Assembly (NCBI GenBank): GCA_008501545.1
Contig: QQUM01000002.1
Location: 1 to 15,164 of the forward strand
From: Calditrichota bacterium
GTDB taxonomy: Bacteria; Zhuqueibacterota; Zhuqueibacteria; Zhuqueibacterales; Geothermadaptataceae
Direction of reading: 5' to 3'
DNA: 15,164 nucleotides
Every line of letters begins with the position of its first letter. Within the stretch, counting starts at the first letter, position 1. A program made the position numbers and the translations under genes. The notes under the pieces were generated by a model. It made no database searches and was not told the origin of the DNA. It worked only from the letters and a program-made list of their open reading frames with translations. This document shows positions 166 through 15,164 of this stretch, in pieces.

Positions 166-3100
166 TTGCCGAATCCAAATTCACCATTTTCTGAAAAATA
201 CACTCTCTACCAAGAATTCTCCCGTGATATCGCGAGCCAGAGCTTTCTCGCCAAAAACAAAGATAATGATGAGCTTGTTGAAGCAAAATTGTTGTCTCCG
301 CAACTGTCGACCGTGCATATAGCGGATATCACAAATTCCTACAAAGAATTCAAGCACCACAATATTCTTTCTTACAAGGAATCACTGCCCGCAGAAAACG
401 GCAAAATAGCGCTCATTTCAGAATTTTCAGAAGGTATCACACTCGAAAACCTGTTTACCTTCATGGTGAATTCAGGTAAAAAAATGCCAATTCACCTTGT
501 TTCATTTATCATCACTGAAATTTGTACCGGCCTGGATTATATTCACTCCAGGCGGATGCAGCAAAATGGCTTGGCGAACACCAGTGCATACCATGGGCTA
601 AGCAAACGAAATATTTTCATTTCAAAAAATGGTGGCGTTAAAATTCGCAGCGTCGAACTATCCGCAATCCGTTACCAGCTAATTCAAGATGAGCTCAACA
701 GAAATGCAGGGCAGCAGCAACTAAAAATTGCACCAGAATATTTTGATAAAGATGCGAAAATAGACTTTCGTGCAGATATTTATTCGCTCGGCATTTTGTT
801 TCTCGAACTCATGCTCGGAGATGATTTTAACCTCGACGAACCACCTGCTGCACTTATTGATGATATTTTCAAAAACAATGCAACTTATTTTGCGGATCAT
901 CCGCTCGAAGTCATGGATAAACTGCGTTTAATTCTGACGAAAATTCTTGCAGAGCATCCAACGCAGCGCTACGCCGCAACAAATCAATTGTACATGGATT
1001 TGCTCCATCAACTCATTTTAACCGCATCCAACGCCAATTTTACGGAAGAACTTGCTGACTTCATCAAAGAAAGCGGCATCGAACTGCTCGGCCAAACATT
1101 AAATACAACAAGTGATGCAAATATGCCTGTGCCGGAAGTAAGTATGAATGAGGAAAATGATACGGCATCCACAATTGAAAATGCGCCACCGGAACCAAGT
1201 GCTGCACAGGATGAACCGGATGAGCACATCGATAATGAAGCGCTTTCCTACTTGCAGAATCTATTGAAAAAACGCAAACCCCATCCTGATAATGAAGAAG
1301 CTGAGCAGCAACCGAAGAATCTACCGGATGATCAAGTAAGTGAAAGCACAACTGGAACAGATAGGGACGCGCCAGCCGCGATGTCATCCGACGCAGAAAA
1401 AACCGAGACGACATCCCGGGACGGAGAGCAGGAAGAGCACAAAGAAGATGACGCCACAGAAAATCTGCACCACCGGGATTTATTCGAGCAATCGGAACAA
1501 GCTGGTGAAATAGAAAAAGATGAAGAATTCTCGGTAGAAGCGGAAACTGAACCCGGCGAAACAAATGACAGGAGTGAGACCGTAAGTGATAAAGATTCGT
1601 CTTCTTCAGACAGTGAGGTTTTAAATCAAGACGATGATTTTCTCATGTCTGAAGACTATGTGGAAATGGCAGAGGTAGCCGAAAACGAGGAGATGGAAAT
1701 CAACATTGATCTCAATGAAACAAGTTCGGATACAACTGAATTAAAACCACAGGATGACGACGAAACCGATTATATCGAAATTATCTCTGAGAGTGAAGAG
1801 AATACGAATAAAAAAGCAATAGCGGATGAACATGAGATTGTAGAAACGAAAACTGAACCGGAAAGCCCAAACGAAGAAAACAACTTTACTATTGAGAAGG
1901 ATTCCGACTCTGGTGAAGATGATCCCCTAAAACCAGTTTTGGGCGAAGCAACAGACACGGCTTATTTCATCCCGCCAAATTCAAATAAAAATGAAGAAAC
2001 CGAAGATACGGATATTTTTGAACATAGTCATAAATCTTCCCCAAAGGACGTCAAGGAACCACAAGAGGAAACACCTGCCAGCTCAAATCCAGAAAAACGC
2101 TTTACGTTAAATGAAGAAGTCATCACCCATCTGGAAAAGGAAGAAGAAAAACTGAACGATGAGCCTGGCGCAAATGGGACGGTAGAAACAAAATCCAATT
2201 TCCAACAACCAGGCGACACTGAGGTTAACGTACCAGAACACGAAAGTGTGACCGACGAGGATGAGATCAACATCCCCTTTTTCGAAGAAGACCAAAAAAA
2301 CGAATCATTTGAGACAACTGAAATAAACTCGGTACCGGAAGAGCCCGATTTTTCCGAGGAAAAAACCGAAGCTAAAGCGAAGGATAAAGTGCTTGATGAG
2401 AAGGAAGCACATGCACCGCCTGAAGAGAAGAATGAAGCATCGGCTGAACAGAAGAAAGAAGAGGCTTCCGACCATTCAACTCCTTTAAATTTTGCCGGAA
2501 ATAAAAAAACCGACGACGCCAATATAGATATTGAATCGGATGACGATGTCCCGGAACAAAAAACTTTTCAAACTGAGAAATCCGACAAATCAAGTCACGG
2601 CTCAAAGAGTTCGAATGTCTTTACGCCAGGGAAAAAACAATCCCGCAAATCATCACTGAGAGAAAAACATGGTTTCTCGCCAAAGAATTTTTTCTCAAAG
2701 AAAAAGGGCAAGAAGTCAGCTGAAGAACCCCTGGTAAAAATACTGGAAAACTCCCAAAGCGGGGCAGCATCGAAATCGGCTTCACGTTTTTACAGCATCA
2801 TCGATGAGCCTTCTCAGGGTCCGGCACAGACCGACGGCGAAGAAATCAAAACCATCATCGATGTCGTCCGCTTGTCTGCACGTTCAAATCCAAAAGCGTT
2901 CATATTTGGCGCTGCGATGATTCCACTTTTGTTCATCTTTTTTACGATAGCAGATACTTTTGCACAAATCACACCGTACGGTACCGGCATTTATGATTAT
3001 CTTTTCCCACCGGCTATTCGAATCGAAACCATACCCGCCGGTGCACAGGTCTATCTCGATGACAAGCCCCTGGCATCAAAAACCCCATTGCAGTTGGATG

Positions 3101-4230
3101 AAATCGATCCGGGTGTTCACAAGCTAAAGCTGGCTTTGCCGAAATTTGAGCCGATCACAAAATCATTTAATGTGCTTAGCAAAGGTGAGCTGCAAGTTGC
3201 CGGTGAAGAATCGCGGCATGGCAGCATTCCCTATTCGTTTAAATTCAAAGTGCAGCTGGAACTCTCGTCACAACCACCCGGTGCGACGATCTACATCAAT
3301 GAAACAAAGTTGGCAGATAAAACCCCGACCACCGTTTTTTGGGAAGTCGATAAAGAACCCATTCAGATTAAAATGGAAAAAGGCAGTTATCCAGGCATTG
3401 ACGGTTTAAAATTCGATGCACAAAAAGACCTTGAAACCATAAATGACAAACGGTTTTGGCGGTTTCAGCGCCTCAATAAAATGAAGCATCATATTGCTGT
3501 TGAGGGAGTCTTTCGTAAGGAAGTCAAGATCGAATCCATTCCGCCGAGAGCGGAAATTTTTATCGATGACAACACCACACCTTCCGGTATTACCGGTATA
3601 AATGGCACATTATTTTTTACGGAAGGCGAACATATAATCACACTCCAAAAGCCGGGATTTATCAGCCGCAGATTCAGTTTAGCGATCACTGAGGATTCAC
3701 CAACTTTCGTGACAGAAACCTTGTACCGATACGTCACCATCGGCGCACGAAATACAGAAAGCAACAGTGAGGGCGATATCGCAGCGACAGTAGTGCAAAT
3801 TGCCGGAAGAGGAAAAACGATTGAAATAAACCGGGAAACACCGGTAAATGTTCGGTTGCTACCATACACTTATACTGCGCTCGTTCGTAAAAATGATTTT
3901 GAGGAAATTGCCATTCGTATTGCACCAAATGATCGGAATGTGGTTGCGAACATGGTCCCAATTCCAACAGATGTTGTGATCATTGCACAAGATGCGTCAT
4001 CGATGGAGCCGATCCCCGGCGTGTCAATTGTATTCAACACTCGCCGGGCGCTGGAGGGCGCTTCAACACTCGGCACGACGGATCCACAAGGAAGACTCAT
4101 TGCCAAAGTACCGGACGGAAGTTTTGCCATCATTGCCAGCAAAGATGGTTACAGCATGACGATGAAAAACATGCAATTTGAAAAAGGCAGAAGAAATCGT
4201 GCTGTTATCCGAATGAAAAAGCAGAATTGA
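166..4230 (+). CDS. Single-pass membrane pseudokinase with acidic linker and C-terminal PEGA-like domains
   Basis: Seen: 1354 residues from a TTG start, chosen because GGGGAG lies 8 nt upstream. Residues ~12-290 read as a Ser/Thr protein kinase fold: a beta3-type lysine (K41 in VEAK), APE (A189-P190-E191) and the subdomain IX motif D204-IYSLG are all present. The catalytic loop reads YHGLSKRN (142-149), so the HRD aspartate position is G144. An ungapped alignment puts S162-V163-E164 where DFG should be, and the glycine-rich loop (~18-24) has no glycine. Only the loop asparagine N149 survives. Residues ~310-810 are rich in Glu/Asp/Ser and look disordered; ~821-850 is a Lys/Arg patch; ~911-930 is one transmembrane helix. 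Beyond it come three PEGA-type repeats (~950-1005, ~1028-1090, ~1119-1175, each with a 'IPxxAxxxxDD'-like core), a fourth degenerate one (~1189-1262), and a carboxypeptidase-regulatory-like end (~1268-1354). Inferred: the kinase-like part is cytoplasmic and acts by binding rather than phosphorylation, while the PEGA part is extracytoplasmic and binds envelope or surface partners. Substrates and partners are unknown. The membrane and PEGA assignments are firm; loss of activity is likely but unproven. Confidence 0.9.
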   Translation: MPNPNSPFSEKYTLYQEFSRDIASQSFLAKNKDNDELVEAKLLSPQLSTVHIADITNSYKEFKHHNILSYKESLPAENGKIALISEFSEGITLENLFTFMVNSGKKMPIHLVSFIITEICTGLDYIHSRRMQQNGLANTSAYHGLSKRNIFISKNGGVKIRSVELSAIRYQLIQDELNRNAGQQQLKIAPEYFDKDAKIDFRADIYSLGILFLELMLGDDFNLDEPPAALIDDIFKNNATYFADHPLEVMDKLRLILTKILAEHPTQRYAATNQLYMDLLHQLILTASNANFTEELADFIKESGIELLGQTLNTTSDANMPVPEVSMNEENDTASTIENAPPEPSAAQDEPDEHIDNEALSYLQNLLKKRKPHPDNEEAEQQPKNLPDDQVSESTTGTDRDAPAAMSSDAEKTETTSRDGEQEEHKEDDATENLHHRDLFEQSEQAGEIEKDEEFSVEAETEPGETNDRSETVSDKDSSSSDSEVLNQDDDFLMSEDYVEMAEVAENEEMEINIDLNETSSDTTELKPQDDDETDYIEIISESEENTNKKAIADEHEIVETKTEPESPNEENNFTIEKDSDSGEDDPLKPVLGEATDTAYFIPPNSNKNEETEDTDIFEHSHKSSPKDVKEPQEETPASSNPEKRFTLNEEVITHLEKEEEKLNDEPGANGTVETKSNFQQPGDTEVNVPEHESVTDEDEINIPFFEEDQKNESFETTEINSVPEEPDFSEEKTEAKAKDKVLDEKEAHAPPEEKNEASAEQKKEEASDHSTPLNFAGNKKTDDANIDIESDDDVPEQKTFQTEKSDKSSHGSKSSNVFTPGKKQSRKSSLREKHGFSPKNFFSKKKGKKSAEEPLVKILENSQSGAASKSASRFYSIIDEPSQGPAQTDGEEIKTIIDVVRLSARSNPKAFIFGAAMIPLLFIFFTIADTFAQITPYGTGIYDYLFPPAIRIETIPAGAQVYLDDKPLASKTPLQLDEIDPGVHKLKLALPKFEPITKSFNVLSKGELQVAGEESRHGSIPYSFKFKVQLELSSQPPGATIYINETKLADKTPTTVFWEVDKEPIQIKMEKGSYPGIDGLKFDAQKDLETINDKRFWRFQRLNKMKHHIAVEGVFRKEVKIESIPPRAEIFIDDNTTPSGITGINGTLFFTEGEHIITLQKPGFISRRFSLAITEDSPTFVTETLYRYVTIGARNTESNSEGDIAATVVQIAGRGKTIEINRETPVNVRLLPYTYTALVRKNDFEEIAIRIAPNDRNVVANMVPIPTDVVIIAQDASSMEPIPGVSIVFNTRRALEGASTLGTTDPQGRLIAKVPDGSFAIIASKDGYSMTMKNMQFEKGRRNRAVIRMKKQN

Positions 4231-9169: not shown

Positions 9170-10639
9170 TCAGTTCACTGAACGTGCAACACGAAATCCG
9201 GCCCATTCAACTATGACAACATTGTCGTGAGGTTCATCGATTATATTCCGCGTCGTTGACCGCGAACCAATGGCATTGCGGAGCCAGGATCCCCCACGGA
9301 TTATTGTAATATCCGCATCAGCAAGACCTGTCCACAGCGGCTCACCAGGGCCGATGGGATTTTCTGCCGGGCTGTGCTGATAAAAGTCAGCCGCCCATTC
9401 ATCAAAAACGATTTCGTCCACATTACCACACATGTCAAATATTCCCAGCGGATTGGCAGGAAAAGAACCGACGGGCGCTCCAGTTTCATAAATATCCGCT
9501 CCCGACGTTTCCGCCAGGTTTGCCAAATCAGGTGAAATAGTCCCATCTTTTGTACCGTATTCCAGGTTTTGATCAGCACGACAGGCACGTTCCCATTCAG
9601 CCTCTGTTGGCAAACGGTAGCCGTAAAAATCACAAAATGCTTTGGCGCCGTACCACGTCATTCTACCAACCGGATGATTTTCATAACCGGATCGCACCAC
9701 AAAGTCCCCCAATTCGCCGGGAGATCCGTTATAAATTATAAAGGGTTGCCCCAATCCTGGCTGATTGATTCGCGTGTACATAGCATATTGGTGCGGTGCA
9801 TTTTTCCCAAATATGAATCCGTCTTCATGCCGAATTTCGTCCAGATGCAATGCTTCTGTCAGATAAGCTGCGTATTGTGCATTGGTAACTTCGTATTTTC
9901 CTACTTCATAAGAATCGAGAAAAACGGAGTGCACCGGACGTTCATTTTCAGCACCGCTTTCGCTGCCCATCGAAAAAGATCCCGCAGGAATTGTAACCAT
10001 TTCAAAGATTGAAACTGGATTTTCTTCAATGGTAATTTCAGCGGTTGCTGACTCGGACTGATAGGATGCTGTGACTATTTCAATCCCGGAACGCCCGGAA
10101 ATTGAACGCAGGTTGCCAAGAGAGTCGATAGTTGCCGCAGTTCCGGGAGATACCGACCACTTTGCCAATTCACTCACATAAGCCTGGCTACCGTCCTGAT
10201 AGGCGGCAACTGCCTGACACTGCAAGGAACGGCCGGCCATCAATTTATTGACACGCGGCAATACAGAAAAAAATGAGGCTCGTTTTGTAATCGTAACCGC
10301 AACAGAATCAATTAATTCACCGTAGCGTGCAAAAACGGTTTCGATGCCGGTTACCAAATTGACGGATCGAAAGATGCCGTTTTCATCAATTGTGCCGACA
10401 AGGACAGGAGTATTCAGCCAGGTTGTTTCCGTCGTTAAATCAATCCGTTCCCCGGAACCGGTCAGGCCGATTGCTGTGAATTGAATAATACTCCCTGAAT
10501 AAATTTCATTCATCCCGGGTTCGATTTGAATAGCAACAATATTTTTATCGGTATCCACGGGATTATTTTTGCAGGTTAAAAGTAGAGAAAAAATGAGTAT
10601 TCCCCAAAGAAACCACAAAAAATAAAGTGCTTTGAACAA
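9170..10639 (-). CDS. Lipoprotein with two Ig-like domains and a SUMF1/FGE-type domain lacking the copper cysteines
   Basis: 489 residues from a TTG preceded by GAGGG at 6 nt. The hydrophobic signal ends in LLLTC, giving a lipid-modified C23. Residues ~33-117 and ~118-205 are two bacterial Ig-like (BIG2-type) repeats, each ending near 'GI..V.A.Y/RYG'. Residues ~209-487 form a formylglycine-generating-enzyme / SUMF1-type fold: PAGSFSMGS near its start, YEVTNAQYAAYL, RLPTEAEWERACR, DMCGNVDE, IIRGGSWLRN (446-455) and the terminal GFRVARS. In true FGE the segment after GGSY carries two Cu-binding cysteines; here those positions are R454 and S459. The usual GNVWEW is GNVDEI. Formylglycine synthesis is therefore unlikely. 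The domain is more like the non-FGE SUMF1 members, such as GldJ/GldK-type lipoproteins. It is likely surface or periplasmic and co-transcribed with the following lipoprotein gene. No sulfatase gene is nearby. Confidence 0.88.
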   Translation of the reverse strand: MFKALYFLWFLWGILIFSLLLTCKNNPVDTDKNIVAIQIEPGMNEIYSGSIIQFTAIGLTGSGERIDLTTETTWLNTPVLVGTIDENGIFRSVNLVTGIETVFARYGELIDSVAVTITKRASFFSVLPRVNKLMAGRSLQCQAVAAYQDGSQAYVSELAKWSVSPGTAATIDSLGNLRSISGRSGIEIVTASYQSESATAEITIEENPVSIFEMVTIPAGSFSMGSESGAENERPVHSVFLDSYEVGKYEVTNAQYAAYLTEALHLDEIRHEDGFIFGKNAPHQYAMYTRINQPGLGQPFIIYNGSPGELGDFVVRSGYENHPVGRMTWYGAKAFCDFYGYRLPTEAEWERACRADQNLEYGTKDGTISPDLANLAETSGADIYETGAPVGSFPANPLGIFDMCGNVDEIVFDEWAADFYQHSPAENPIGPGEPLWTGLADADITIIRGGSWLRNAIGSRSTTRNIIDEPHDNVVIVEWAGFRVARSVN

Positions 10640-11074: not shown

Positions 11075-11299
11075 CTACAATGCATGAAACGTTCCGCTTT
11101 CCACAATTTCAACGAAGACGCCTTCAATCTGCTCCGGAATAAGGCTAACAAGGCTGACATCATATTTATCAACACTGATAACAATGCCGGTTTCACCGTT
11201 TTTGAGTAAACCGATGCCAACTGCCTGTACACGGGAGAGCGCCATCCAATTGTCCTCATGTGCCGCTTTAATTTCTTTTATTTTTTCCAGTGGTTTCAT
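11075..11299 (-). CDS. Stand-alone homologue of the adjacent protease's prodomain (possible inhibitor or chaperone)
   Basis: 74 residues from an ATG; no signal peptide, no cysteine. It starts 7 nt after the protease stop on the same strand, so it is almost certainly co-transcribed and may be translationally coupled; its own ribosome binding site is poor. By eye it matches the N-terminal part of the upstream protease: AVGIG (26-30) against ATGVG, KNGE (33-36) against VNGK, the strand ending in ISV against CSV, LIPEQIEG (53-60) against LIPEKIQN, then a hydrophobic strand and the terminal ESGTFHAL against PTGVIHAL. The small protein stops exactly where the protease's prodomain ends and its catalytic domain begins. 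Inferred: a duplicated prodomain retained as a free protein, which could inhibit the protease or assist its folding. It could also be a functionless remnant, although the intact frame and conserved motifs argue against decay. Confidence 0.75.
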   Translation of the reverse strand: MKPLEKIKEIKAAHEDNWMALSRVQAVGIGLLKNGETGIVISVDKYDVSLVSLIPEQIEGVFVEIVESGTFHAL

Positions 11300-11306
11300 A
11301 ACTCAC

Positions 11307-12356
11307 TCAAGGGAGAATGTTGATATCCAGCGCAGTGAAAACATTTTGAATCCGGTTTAAAATGGTGCTGTTGCTACTTCCGGCGAACAACAAGCCAACG
11401 AGCTCGTTTTGCTCATTGAGAATCGTCGAGCCGCTATCACCACCTGCACTCATCCCGCCACCTGTCATTAATTGATCAACGAAGGTCGCGATTTTATTCG
11501 TGCCATAGCTCACATCCACCGTCACATCGATTTGCAGGATTGTACCGGTCGTGAATCCCGTCGTGCGGCCACTTTTTTTCACAGCCATTGCGAGGGTGCC
11601 TTCGGCAACACCTGCTATTTTTCCAATATTGAGTATTTCATTCTTTACGAAATCGTCCGACAAAGGCTTGGCGATTGCACAATCAACAAGATTTTCACCA
11701 GCCTGCGTTACAACCTGTTTTTGAGCGACAAGGCGCGTTTTACTGCCGAGCAACGCCGCAACTGCATTCAACACACCTGCTGTACTGTTGGCTATTTTGC
11801 AGTCACTTCCGCCGCCTCCACCACCACCGCCGCCCCCGCCGCTTCCGCCTTGAAACTGGATGGGCACGAATTCACTCAACTCTGCAATTCGATCTTCCGG
11901 AAAACTCCCCCCATCTGCGGCTCCCGGTTGAATAATATTATCACCGATGCTTGCGTCGTTGCTGTTCGCCAATACGTGGTTATTGGAAAGAATATACTGC
12001 TGTCCATTTTTTTCCACCAGACAACCAAGTGTCCCGGCCGTAATTGAAACATGGCCAATGCTTACACCACCGGGTGCAGGACGAAATTTACGCTTGGGAT
12101 CCTGCAGTGCATGAATGACGCCTGTTGGGTAGACATCTGTCGCAATATTTTGAATTTTTTCTGGAATAAGTTCATGCTGTGACAGAAATTTTTTCGCTTT
12201 TTTTGTACTGACTGAACAAATCAATGCGGGTTCTTCGGTTGGTTTTCCATTAACAACTTTATACCCAACTCCGGTTGCCACGATATTTGGTTTGTTACGA
12301 AGTTCCTGTCTCACATCTGCGAGAAGCTGTCGTACGTTTTGAATTTGAGTAGCCAT
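11307..12356 (-). CDS. Trypsin-like (S1/chymotrypsin-fold) serine protease with N-terminal prodomain
   Basis: 349 residues from the ATG at 12356. This start is chosen over an in-frame ATG at 12386 because GGAGG lies just upstream and the ten extra residues look non-coding. Residues ~24-84 form a small alpha/beta prodomain ('GVGYKVVNGK', 'SVSTKK', 'LIPEKI', ending in HAL). The catalytic domain follows from ~95, with H127 in SNNHV, D225 in LVDCAIAKP and S308 in GGDSGS, so the triad is complete. An 11-glycine run flanked by serines (~172-184) lies between the His and Asp elements. This resembles bacterial S1-like peptidases that carry the same N-terminal segment. No signal peptide or membrane segment is seen, so it is probably cytoplasmic or exported by another route. 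The substrate is unknown. The stand-alone prodomain gene follows immediately. The upstream gap of ~275 nt to the sensor kinase suggests its own promoter. Confidence 0.9.
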   Translation of the reverse strand: MATQIQNVRQLLADVRQELRNKPNIVATGVGYKVVNGKPTEEPALICSVSTKKAKKFLSQHELIPEKIQNIATDVYPTGVIHALQDPKRKFRPAPGGVSIGHVSITAGTLGCLVEKNGQQYILSNNHVLANSNDASIGDNIIQPGAADGGSFPEDRIAELSEFVPIQFQGGSGGGGGGGGGGGSDCKIANSTAGVLNAVAALLGSKTRLVAQKQVVTQAGENLVDCAIAKPLSDDFVKNEILNIGKIAGVAEGTLAMAVKKSGRTTGFTTGTILQIDVTVDVSYGTNKIATFVDQLMTGGGMSAGGDSGSTILNEQNELVGLLFAGSSNSTILNRIQNVFTALDINILP

Positions 12357-12365: not shown

Positions 12366-12402
12366 ATTTGCATAATTCAACTGCATGATCGGTTTGCATA
12401 CT

Positions 12403-12631: not shown

Positions 12632-15164
12632 TCACGTTATTTCTTTTATCATGACTTGCCTGATCAGTTCTGCTATTTCGCGTGCAGTTGCCGGTTTAAT
12701 GATATATCCCTTAATGCCCAAAGTTCTTAATTCATCTGGATCAATCTTCTCACTGTAGCCTGAGGTCAGTATGATTGGCATATCCGGGCGAATAGTAAGG
12801 ATGTCCTTTGTTAGCTGGAGCCCTGTCATCTCAGGCATAATTTGGTCTGTGATAATTAAATCATATTGGAATGGATCATTTTTAAAGTGCTCAAGCGCTT
12901 CCCGGCTATTGTGTTCTACCGAAACCGTGTAGCCCAGGCGACTTAATATCTGTTTGACAACTTTCGCGACCGATACTTCATCATCAACGAGTAAAATCCG
13001 CTCATTGCCACCTGGAATATTATTTGTAATTGCAATTTCTTCAATATCTTCAGCTTTCGCTACAGGCAAATAAACATGAAATGTGCTGCCAACATTGATT
13101 TCACTTGTAACCTGAATGGTTCCCCCGATGGAGTGGATAATTCCATGAACAGCAGACAAGCCAAGCCCCGTTCCTTTGCCGACGGGTTTTGTCGTAAAGA
13201 AAGGATCAAAAATTTTATCGAGTGTGATCGGATCCATGCCGTTGCCGGAATCCTTAATTTTGAGCATAACATACTGCCCATCTTTCAAGTTAAAATTTTG
13301 ATCCCAGGATGGCTCAACACAACTTAATTCGATGTGTATCTTGCCAACATGCTCGCCAATGGCCTGATACGCGTTCGTCCCCAAGTTCATAATCACCTGG
13401 TGAATTTGAGATGGATTTGCCAGTACATGTGGGATATTTTTATCGATATTGGAGATCAATTCGATAGATGAGGGAATGGATGATCGCAAAAACTTTAGCG
13501 CCTCTTTTACAATGCTATCAACCTTTACGGGTTTGATTTCATCGGCTTTTTTACGGCTGAAAGAAAGGATTTGCCGGACGAGATCTTTCGCACGAAATGC
13601 AGCATCATTAATCGCTTTGATGTTTTTGTAAAGCATGCTTTCCTTGGCCACTTCAGCCAGGGAAATATCAGCATATCCAATAATTACTGATAGAATATTG
13701 TTAAAATCATGCGCGATACCTCCAGCCAGCACACCGATCGATTCCATTCGCTTTGCTCTGCCGAGCTGCTCTGTCAATTGTTGCCGTTCGGTGACGTCCT
13801 TTAAAATACACCGGATTTCTGTCATTTCGCCGTTATCATCTTTAACAGCGTAAGCAGATAAAATCAGGTAAACCTTACTCCCTGAATTCGAATTTACAAT
13901 GACATCCGCATTTTGAATATATCCATTTTGCACAATGTTCGCGCGTAGTTTATCCCTTTCCGATTCGTTTTCGACCAGGTGAAGCAAAAAATTCTTTTTA
14001 AAAATTTTTTCTTTTACTTCAAATCCAAAAATATCCAGACCTGCCGGATTGATATCAAGGAAATCCCACTTTGCTGAACAGATAAAAATGATATCCCTGG
14101 ACTGGTTAAACATTTCTTGCAGTTTTTGCTCGGTGCTGGCTAACTCGGCCGTTCTTTCGTCCACGAGCAGTTTGAGCAATTCAGCCTGCTTGCGCCGGGA
14201 ATTTTGCAAATAAATCAGAAAAACGAATGAAGTGAAAAGAATGGCGACCAGAGCATAAAACCACGCCTGCTTATAGAGCGGAAGATTTATGCGAAAATAC
14301 GGTGAATAGACAATCTCGCTCTGTATTCCGTCGACATTTTCCGCACGAATTTGAAAACGGTATTTTCCAGGTGCAATATTTGTATATTGAATTTCCGGTT
14401 TGAGTAAAGGGCTTTCAACTTGCCAATTCTCCCCTGCTCCATCGAGTTTATAGCTTATTTTGATATTTTTTTCATCGGTGAACGCAATGCAGCGAACATG
14501 AATATGAATATTGTTTTGACCGGCTTCGAGATTTAACTGATGGGTTTCAAGGATATCTAATGAATCCACATGGACTCTCGTAAGCTCAAGTCGTGGAGCA
14601 ACCGGTGGCTTGCTGTCGTATTTCGGCTGGTAATTTGAGATACCATGATCGGTCCCGATCCATACTGTATTTTTACTATCGAGATATCCTGCTGAACGGT
14701 TGGTTTCGTGTCCTGCGAGACCGTGTAGATGGCTGAAGTGTTTCAGGGTCGAGCCATTCCAGCGCGACACACCACGATCCGTTCCGAACCACAATCGTTC
14801 ATCCTTATCTTCAAGAATAAAATAAACCGGTGAATCAATATGAAATAGCTCATCAAATTTTACCAGGGAGTCACCGGAAAGATAATACAAACCACCTAAT
14901 GTTCCGCAAAGAATTTGTCCATTTGATCGTTTGAAAACATTATACAAATTCATCGCTGCAGGATCCGGCCCCTGAACCAATTTTTCGACGCCATCTTCGT
15001 AATAAGCAAGGCCTTTTGATGAACAGGCAAACAAACGATCGTCTATTATAACGAGTTTACGAATAGCATCAGAAGTGTCGAATTCGAAATTATATATCTT
15101 TACAAATTGGTCGTTTTCCAATTTAAAGAGATCACCAGACTCAACACACCACACGTTCCCCTGA
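12632..15164 (-). CDS. Hybrid histidine kinase, Reg_prop propeller / Y_Y_Y / PAS / HisKA / HATPase / REC (N-terminus cut by window edge)
   Basis: The frame is open to the right edge, and a propeller-like 'GNVW' lies upstream of a GTG at 15154, so that GTG is internal and the gene is partial. Numbering from that GTG as residue 1: ~1-180 are two-component-regulator propeller repeats (LWFGTDRGVSRW and VWIGTDHGISNY are typical); ~205-290 a Y_Y_Y domain; ~296-316 a transmembrane helix; ~320-348 a linker coil; ~345-460 a PAS domain; then the H-box GGIAHDFNN with phospho-acceptor H482. The ATPase shows an N-box around N590, DSGNG (635-639) and GTGLGL (661-666). A C-terminal receiver has VDDE (723-726), phospho-acceptor D770 (ITDQIMPEMTG) and K820. 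All key residues are present, so it should autophosphorylate and pass phosphate to its own receiver. The propeller is expected in the periplasm, sensing a ligand such as a glycan or other nutrient (family knowledge). It has no DNA-binding output domain, unlike the classical one-protein systems of Bacteroides, so a separate response regulator or phosphotransfer protein must exist elsewhere. Confidence 0.95.
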   Translation of the reverse strand, partial: QGNVWCVESGDLFKLENDQFVKIYNFEFDTSDAIRKLVIIDDRLFACSSKGLAYYEDGVEKLVQGPDPAAMNLYNVFKRSNGQILCGTLGGLYYLSGDSLVKFDELFHIDSPVYFILEDKDERLWFGTDRGVSRWNGSTLKHFSHLHGLAGHETNRSAGYLDSKNTVWIGTDHGISNYQPKYDSKPPVAPRLELTRVHVDSLDILETHQLNLEAGQNNIHIHVRCIAFTDEKNIKISYKLDGAGENWQVESPLLKPEIQYTNIAPGKYRFQIRAENVDGIQSEIVYSPYFRINLPLYKQAWFYALVAILFTSFVFLIYLQNSRRKQAELLKLLVDERTAELASTEQKLQEMFNQSRDIIFICSAKWDFLDINPAGLDIFGFEVKEKIFKKNFLLHLVENESERDKLRANIVQNGYIQNADVIVNSNSGSKVYLILSAYAVKDDNGEMTEIRCILKDVTERQQLTEQLGRAKRMESIGVLAGGIAHDFNNILSVIIGYADISLAEVAKESMLYKNIKAINDAAFRAKDLVRQILSFSRKKADEIKPVKVDSIVKEALKFLRSSIPSSIELISNIDKNIPHVLANPSQIHQVIMNLGTNAYQAIGEHVGKIHIELSCVEPSWDQNFNLKDGQYVMLKIKDSGNGMDPITLDKIFDPFFTTKPVGKGTGLGLSAVHGIIHSIGGTIQVTSEINVGSTFHVYLPVAKAEDIEEIAITNNIPGGNERILLVDDEVSVAKVVKQILSRLGYTVSVEHNSREALEHFKNDPFQYDLIITDQIMPEMTGLQLTKDILTIRPDMPIILTSGYSEKIDPDELRTLGIKGYIIKPATAREIAELIRQVMIKEIT

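Follow-up and report, generated by a model that had tools for sequence, protein, structure and literature searches.

Stand-alone regulators that resemble protease propeptides are known for subtilases and also exist for cysteine proteases. In the SpeB/Spi and staphopain/staphostatin pairs, the inhibitor gene lies just 3′ of the protease gene, Spi being said to resemble a propeptide, and both enzymes are cysteine proteases, unlike the one considered here. For the subtilases, SUB1-ProM is described as lying in synteny next to subtilisin genes (PMC6993865). The gene pair described here lies on the reverse strand of a 15,164-nucleotide (nt) stretch of DNA from a Calditrichota bacterium (contig QQUM01000002.1, assembly GCA_008501545.1; the whole stretch is called the window). 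It consists of a NAL1-like trypsin-fold serine protease of 349 amino acids (aa) plus stop (11307..12356) and a protein of 74 aa plus stop (11075..11299), which stands alone but is homologous to the N-terminal domain of the protease and is most likely a trans-acting regulator of the enzyme. NAL1 itself is described as a protease affecting leaf shape in rice and flowering in maize.

Profile comparison shows homology between the entire 74-aa protein and the N-terminal domain of the protease. BLASTP aligns only its last 22 residues with the protease (41% identity, E 1e-4). A comparison of a profile of eight small proteins with the N-terminal parts (to window residue 84) of 120 homologous proteases gave a probability of 97.4% and an E-value of 9.2e-12 over 75 columns at 24% identity, versus a probability of 0.1% for the catalytic part of the same 120 proteases. 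These values rule out chance similarity. The profile alignment closes on "..AL" on both sides, at the start of the catalytic domain, bearing out both the resemblance and the shared end reported in the first-pass annotation.

The two predicted topologies agree. The protease N-terminal (NAL1_N-type) domain, delimited by profile comparison, Pfam and predicted structure (residues 1-84, ending ...VIHAL, 12105..12356), is modelled as a helix (2-20) followed by strands at 25-35, 38-49 and 71-77. The small protein is modelled with a helix (4-19), strands at 24-31 and 37-43, a second helix (48-53) and a strand at 61-67. The predicted local distance difference test (pLDDT) falls below 50 in the interdomain linker of the protease (residues 80-86, 12099..12119) and in its counterpart at the C-terminus of the small protein, a tail of five residues (70-74, TFHAL, 11078..11092). 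The conserved G..HAL end thus lies in a low-confidence stretch in both proteins, beside the start of the catalytic domain.

The 349-aa protein is, on its domain matches, a relative of NAL1, with no claim of orthology. In Pfam it passes the NAL1_N cut-off narrowly (28.1 bits against 27) and matches Trypsin_2 and Trypsin, while Nal1_C (PF25819) stays below its cut-off (17 against 26.1 bits). In the scan of the source genome NAL1_N reaches 30.7 bits, the same search having matched 5 of 14 control genomes, above the cut-off in one. The protein also matches PHROG 20754, "protease" (7.5e-74). The catalytic domain (residues 94-349, 11310..12077) has the trypsin fold with an intact H-D-S triad, and the overall fold is that of rice NAL1, in line with the S1-like enzyme proposed at first. 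The triad codons are H127 (11976-11978), D225 (11682-11684) and S308 (11433-11435), all invariant in a 45-row alignment. Across 89 proteases His and Ser are present in every sequence and Asp in 87, with an alignment gap in the other two. In alpha-lytic protease and SGPB, the counterparts of protease residues 92-94 are chain residues 15A/16.

The first-pass wording, a copy of the protease's own prodomain, needs correction on two counts. A hidden Markov model (HMM) of free copies gives the small protein 74 bits and one of protease N-terminal domains gives it 23, a contrast overstated because the small protein was itself among the 146 that trained the first model, and a tree (below) places it apart from its partner's domain. 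With 24% identity, these results exclude a recent tandem duplicate and point to a divergent relative rather than a recent copy. "Prodomain" is unsupported as worded, an equivalent domain being present in the solved structures of rice NAL1, some of whose entries are titled "open" and "close". This place in the mature enzyme would suit an assembly partner or substrate adaptor, in which the free domain would take the place of its fused counterpart inside a protease oligomer, or compete with it there, and so determine how the oligomer assembles or which substrates it accepts. That the small protein stops where a catalytic domain would start fits as well, but the flexible C-terminal tail would then have no obvious role, and we consider an adaptor improbable.

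The family of the small protein is unnamed in the family libraries searched. The 74-aa protein exceeded no cut-off in Pfam or NCBIfam, nor did it match anything at E 1 in PADLOC or PHROGs. Up to the same E-value of 1, neither it nor the protease matched the anti-phage defence models of PADLOC. None of 68 free copies matched Pfam at E 0.01, NAL1_N, PF02983 and the subtilisin propeptide families being among those unmatched. A PDB sequence search with the free-copy profile returned chance-level matches (best E 0.077). Foldseek with the small-protein model gave none at E ≤0.001; its weak matches (E ≥0.04) include NAL1 and pro-region chains, which became distinct only after a second look with VIA-align.

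The small protein is probably a regulator dedicated to its neighbour, and probably an inhibitor. We give moderate credence to a two-part protease-regulator module, in which it would bind the catalytic domain in trans and keep the protease inactive or damped. Gene 1 would supply a NAL1-like chymotrypsin-fold protease with a helix-plus-sheet N-terminal domain before the catalytic domain, and gene 2 a domain of that kind on its own. Both would presumably come from one transcript, with translation that may be coupled in many relatives. We infer that the small protein docks on the catalytic domain at or near the site of the N-terminal domain, and that its flexible C-terminal tail (G.[IF].A[LQ]) occupies the path of the interdomain linker towards the catalytic domain. 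The bound protease would then stay inactive or damped for as long as the regulator is neither lost nor titrated out.

The gene pair recurs in related genomes, a check that the first-pass annotation had named. A protease search of 99 related genomes found matches in 50 at E 1e-10. A free copy stands beside all eight of the closest proteases (window included, ≥58% identity), at most about 110 nt from the stop in seven and 488 nt downstream in the eighth (L009, genome G068). An HMM scan of the flanks of 22 more distant proteases (L011-L032, ≤52% identity) found none. These 22 relatives, which do without an adjacent copy, speak against a folding helper, whereby the foldase role of the alpha-lytic pro region would be supplied in trans and inhibition would be secondary or absent. 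Each protease retains its own N-terminal domain, moreover, and a second foldase seems redundant. Despite the precedent of the pro region, we hold this explanation to be unlikely.

Next to several of the distant proteases stands a different gene. A large membrane-type protein starts 6-17 nt 3′ of the protease in L011, L013, L023, L025, L027, L028 and L031, and 25 nt 3′ in L029. It measures 724 aa in L128 (the same locus as L011) and 715 aa in L133 (the same as L029), and the L011 protein, the sole one tested, has a GAF domain. Possibly this neighbour is a second kind of protease partner that replaces the small copy.

A search with the small-protein alignment against 82 genomes of the phylum gave matches in 50 at E 0.001, fused and free domains together. 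Of 28 fetched loci with a free copy, 21 have a protease alongside and five do not (L044, L048, L050, L051, L060). L039 is cut by a contig end, and in L053 the neighbouring open reading frame (ORF) probably encodes the last part of a long protease. Four of the protease-less copies (L048, L050, L051 and L060) belong to genomes G058, G047, G053 and G023, which carry a protease elsewhere (L025, L027, L011 and L028, respectively) with the membrane-type neighbour. The gene adjoining the L050 copy encodes hexapeptide repeats.

Beyond the source phylum, GTDB genomes were scanned with the protease alignment, and of 582 confirmed relatives the 80 most similar to the window protease were examined. Rates from this selection are not valid for all NAL1-like proteases, and since eight of the 80 loci (L062, L063, L064, L065, L074, L128, L133, L136) repeat records of the phylum search, the two surveys are not independent. 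Record titles among the 80 include Calditrichota, KSB1, Gammaproteobacteria, Betaproteobacteria, Deltaproteobacteria, Desulfobacterota groups and Myxococcales; Bacteroidota, Chlorobaculum, Spirochaetales, Armatimonadetes and Gemmatimonadetes; and Actinomycetes, Coriobacteriia, Anaerolineae and relatives, and candidate divisions. By the HMM of 146 small proteins, a free copy lies within 800 nt downstream in 63 loci and within 800 nt upstream in eight. Seven loci have none despite at least 500 nt of available sequence, and two are cut by contig ends. All 71 matches adjoin the protease, with zero elsewhere in these loci. In 33 of the 63 downstream copies the first possible start overlaps the protease stop by 4 nt (GTGA 17, ATGA 12, TTGA 4), whereas apparent overlaps of -259 and -478 in L094 and L105 are spurious, the first possible start having been taken. 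The upstream copies (L121, L125-L127, L131, L132, L138, L140) come from seven Chloroflexota metagenome-assembled genomes (MAGs) and one Syntrophaceae MAG and are of the protease-domain type.

No free copy was found beside any of 75 protease relatives on viral contigs (L142-L216), which make a weak negative control because most of them are further removed from the protease of the window. Querying a database with 27 small proteins returned 1407 relatives at E ≤0.01 among 2854 candidates. Among the 120 of these that were listed, none carries a precomputed Pfam annotation, and the names given by the source that were noticed all read "hypothetical protein". One relative, P0123 (182 aa), combines a leader with two tandem free-standing domains and has no Pfam match. 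A larger conserved operon within the flanks examined was considered and rejected, the two biggest shared groups of flanking ORFs being antisense to the protease (one example of each judged). Response regulators, the third group, occur in 12 of the 80 loci, and the remaining groups in at most three each.

The two partners are co-inherited. Catalytic-domain and small-protein distances correlate with r 0.71 over 58 pairs in a Mantel test, a value that none of 5000 permutations reached (highest 0.24), though a high r of this kind is obtainable from shared ancestry alone. The 58 are what remains of 64 downstream pairs after removal of L097 and L117 (truncated ORFs) and L122, L135, L137 and L141 (Chloroflexota-type copies). 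The tree was built from 80 free copies and the N-terminal domains of 89 proteases (169 rows, 90 columns, midpoint root, bootstrap unsettled). On it, a minimum of two switches between the fused and the free form is needed: the starred branches force two, and 0% of 200 bootstrap trees need only one. Eight copies from a lipoprotein clade group with the N-terminal domains of eight lipoprotein proteases (99/96), and 12 Chloroflexota-type copies (11 Chloroflexota, one Syntrophaceae) branch with the N-terminal domains of the other 81 proteases (100/99). All other copies fall into two free-only groups, one of 39 rows (100/99) and one of 21 rows that includes the window (80/86, weak).

A detached, functionless domain persisting beside the protease would be in keeping with the seven loci that have room for a copy and lack one. 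However, the substitution pattern of the small ORF is that of a real gene. Against two same-genus copies, codon positions 1/2/3 differ at 23/16/47 and 24/15/43 of 74 codons, a purifying pattern which also eliminates a spurious ORF. Retention across several phyla together with co-inheritance already disfavours such a relic, which we regard as scarcely credible.

Export-like leaders, called with a crude hydrophobicity rule, present a difficulty. The window protease was first described as cytoplasmic, and neither partner carries a leader, nor do the six copies labelled Calditrichota. Among the 71 free copies, however, 29 have a strong hydrophobic N-terminal leader, namely 20 of the 21 gammaproteobacterial copies, six others that are proteobacterial in the old sense, one from Chlorobaculum, one from Gemmatimonadetes and one from an unlabelled MAG (L074, the same record as L010 of genome G075, in the source phylum). 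Of the proteases next to these 29, 27 fall below the hydrophobicity threshold, L072 is marginally above it and L097 lacks its N-terminus. In most proteobacterial pairs, by this rule, the small protein thus has an export-like leader and the protease has none. This mismatch is a puzzling feature that does not fit.

One escape would be a second, leaderless product of the leader copies, towards which the start sites lean. A Met stands at the domain start in 22 of the 29, and in 12 of those 22 it is preceded by a ribosome-binding-like motif (background 31%, binomial P 0.017); the first start has such a motif in 9 of 29. An alternative that takes the leaders at face value is an immunity-type role, in which the proteobacterial protease leaves by a signal-independent route and the exported small protein shields the producer's envelope. 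The distribution of leaders just described speaks for it, as does the position of the small gene, downstream and often overlapping. But the window copy and its Calditrichota-labelled relatives are leaderless, G075 being the case within the same phylum that has one; no secretion-type gene common to the loci was found within 3 kb; and a protein homologous to the protease's own domain would be expected to act as a regulator, not to have an unrelated immunity fold. We accord this role a low probability.

The source phylum also has a clade with lipoprotein-like proteases. Both partners carry a lipoprotein-like leader in eight of 11 pairs with both N-termini in view, and the protease alone has one in the other three (L043, L049, L054); in a twelfth pair, L061, neither partner has one. 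L047, L053 and L058, whose protease N-termini lie outside the locus, are left out of this count of 12. Returning to regulation, it is conceivable, if slightly short of an even prospect, that free NAL1_N-type domains form an unnamed, widespread regulator family of bacterial NAL1-like proteases, with at least two fused/free interconversions and, in Proteobacteria, export of the regulator and not of the protease.

At the window locus itself, the protease stop and the small-gene start are separated by the 7-nt spacer GTGAGTT (11300..11306, reverse strand), and the first-pass ORF pair and operon-like layout stand unchanged. The protease start at 12356 is favoured over a second in-frame ATG at 12386 because GGAGG lies 4 nt 5′ of the former. 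The source genome (4.13 Mb, 838 contigs, 68% complete) has one match each for the protease and the small protein. The nearest named protein, from a "Deferribacteres bacterium" MAG, is 84% identical, many others being labelled Calditrichota, Caldithrix or KSB1. Elsewhere in the window lie a hybrid sensor kinase upstream of the protease (12632-15154, reverse strand; Reg_prop, Y_Y_Y, PAS, HisKA, HATPase and receiver domains), a 1354-aa protein with a protein kinase domain, three PEGA matches and a long acidic middle (166-4230, forward strand), and a protein that combines a sulfatase-modifying-factor (FGE) type domain with a hydrophobic segment at its N-terminus (9170-10639, reverse strand).

Titles and abstract openings in one open-access library yielded no paper on free-standing NAL1_N proteins or on bacterial NAL1-like proteases, and plant NAL1 is not known to have a free-standing NAL1_N partner. 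Compared with the plant enzyme, the bacterial protein is shorter and falls below the Nal1_C cut-off. The alpha-lytic protease pro region (PF02983), which none of the 68 free copies matches, differs in being longer and part of the protease precursor; PDB 4hlb from Desulfovibrio piger, titled "alpha-lytic protease prodomain-like protein", is grouped with it as a near system. Closer in arrangement are the stand-alone I9 inhibitors of MEROPS (Plasmodium SUB1-ProM, Toxoplasma MIC5 and those of Pleurotus, yeast and Arabidopsis), which, like the window protein, are small separate gene products with the fold of a protease propeptide. Their partners are subtilases (S8) and their inhibition has been measured, whereas the window partner is a chymotrypsin-fold enzyme; with a trypsin-fold partner and no Pfam match to subtilisin propeptides, the window protein falls outside I9. 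In common with stand-alone propeptide-type inhibitors in general, it is encoded by a small separate gene that is homologous to a protease N-terminal domain and linked to that protease. Binding and inhibition can be tested quickly because the pair is small and present in named strains, among them Sinomicrobium weinanense (L085), Fodinibius roseus (L106), Geofilum rubicundum (L108) and Methylobacter psychrophilus (L098), and the existence of the domain apart from the enzyme in bacteria offers a route to the role of the NAL1 N-terminal domain. What distinguishes this locus from the subtilase examples is a conserved gene pair built around NAL1-like chymotrypsin-fold proteases in many bacterial groups; if the proposed regulation is correct, it would represent trans-propeptide-type control of chymotrypsin-fold proteases, separate from the subtilisin and cysteine-protease cases.
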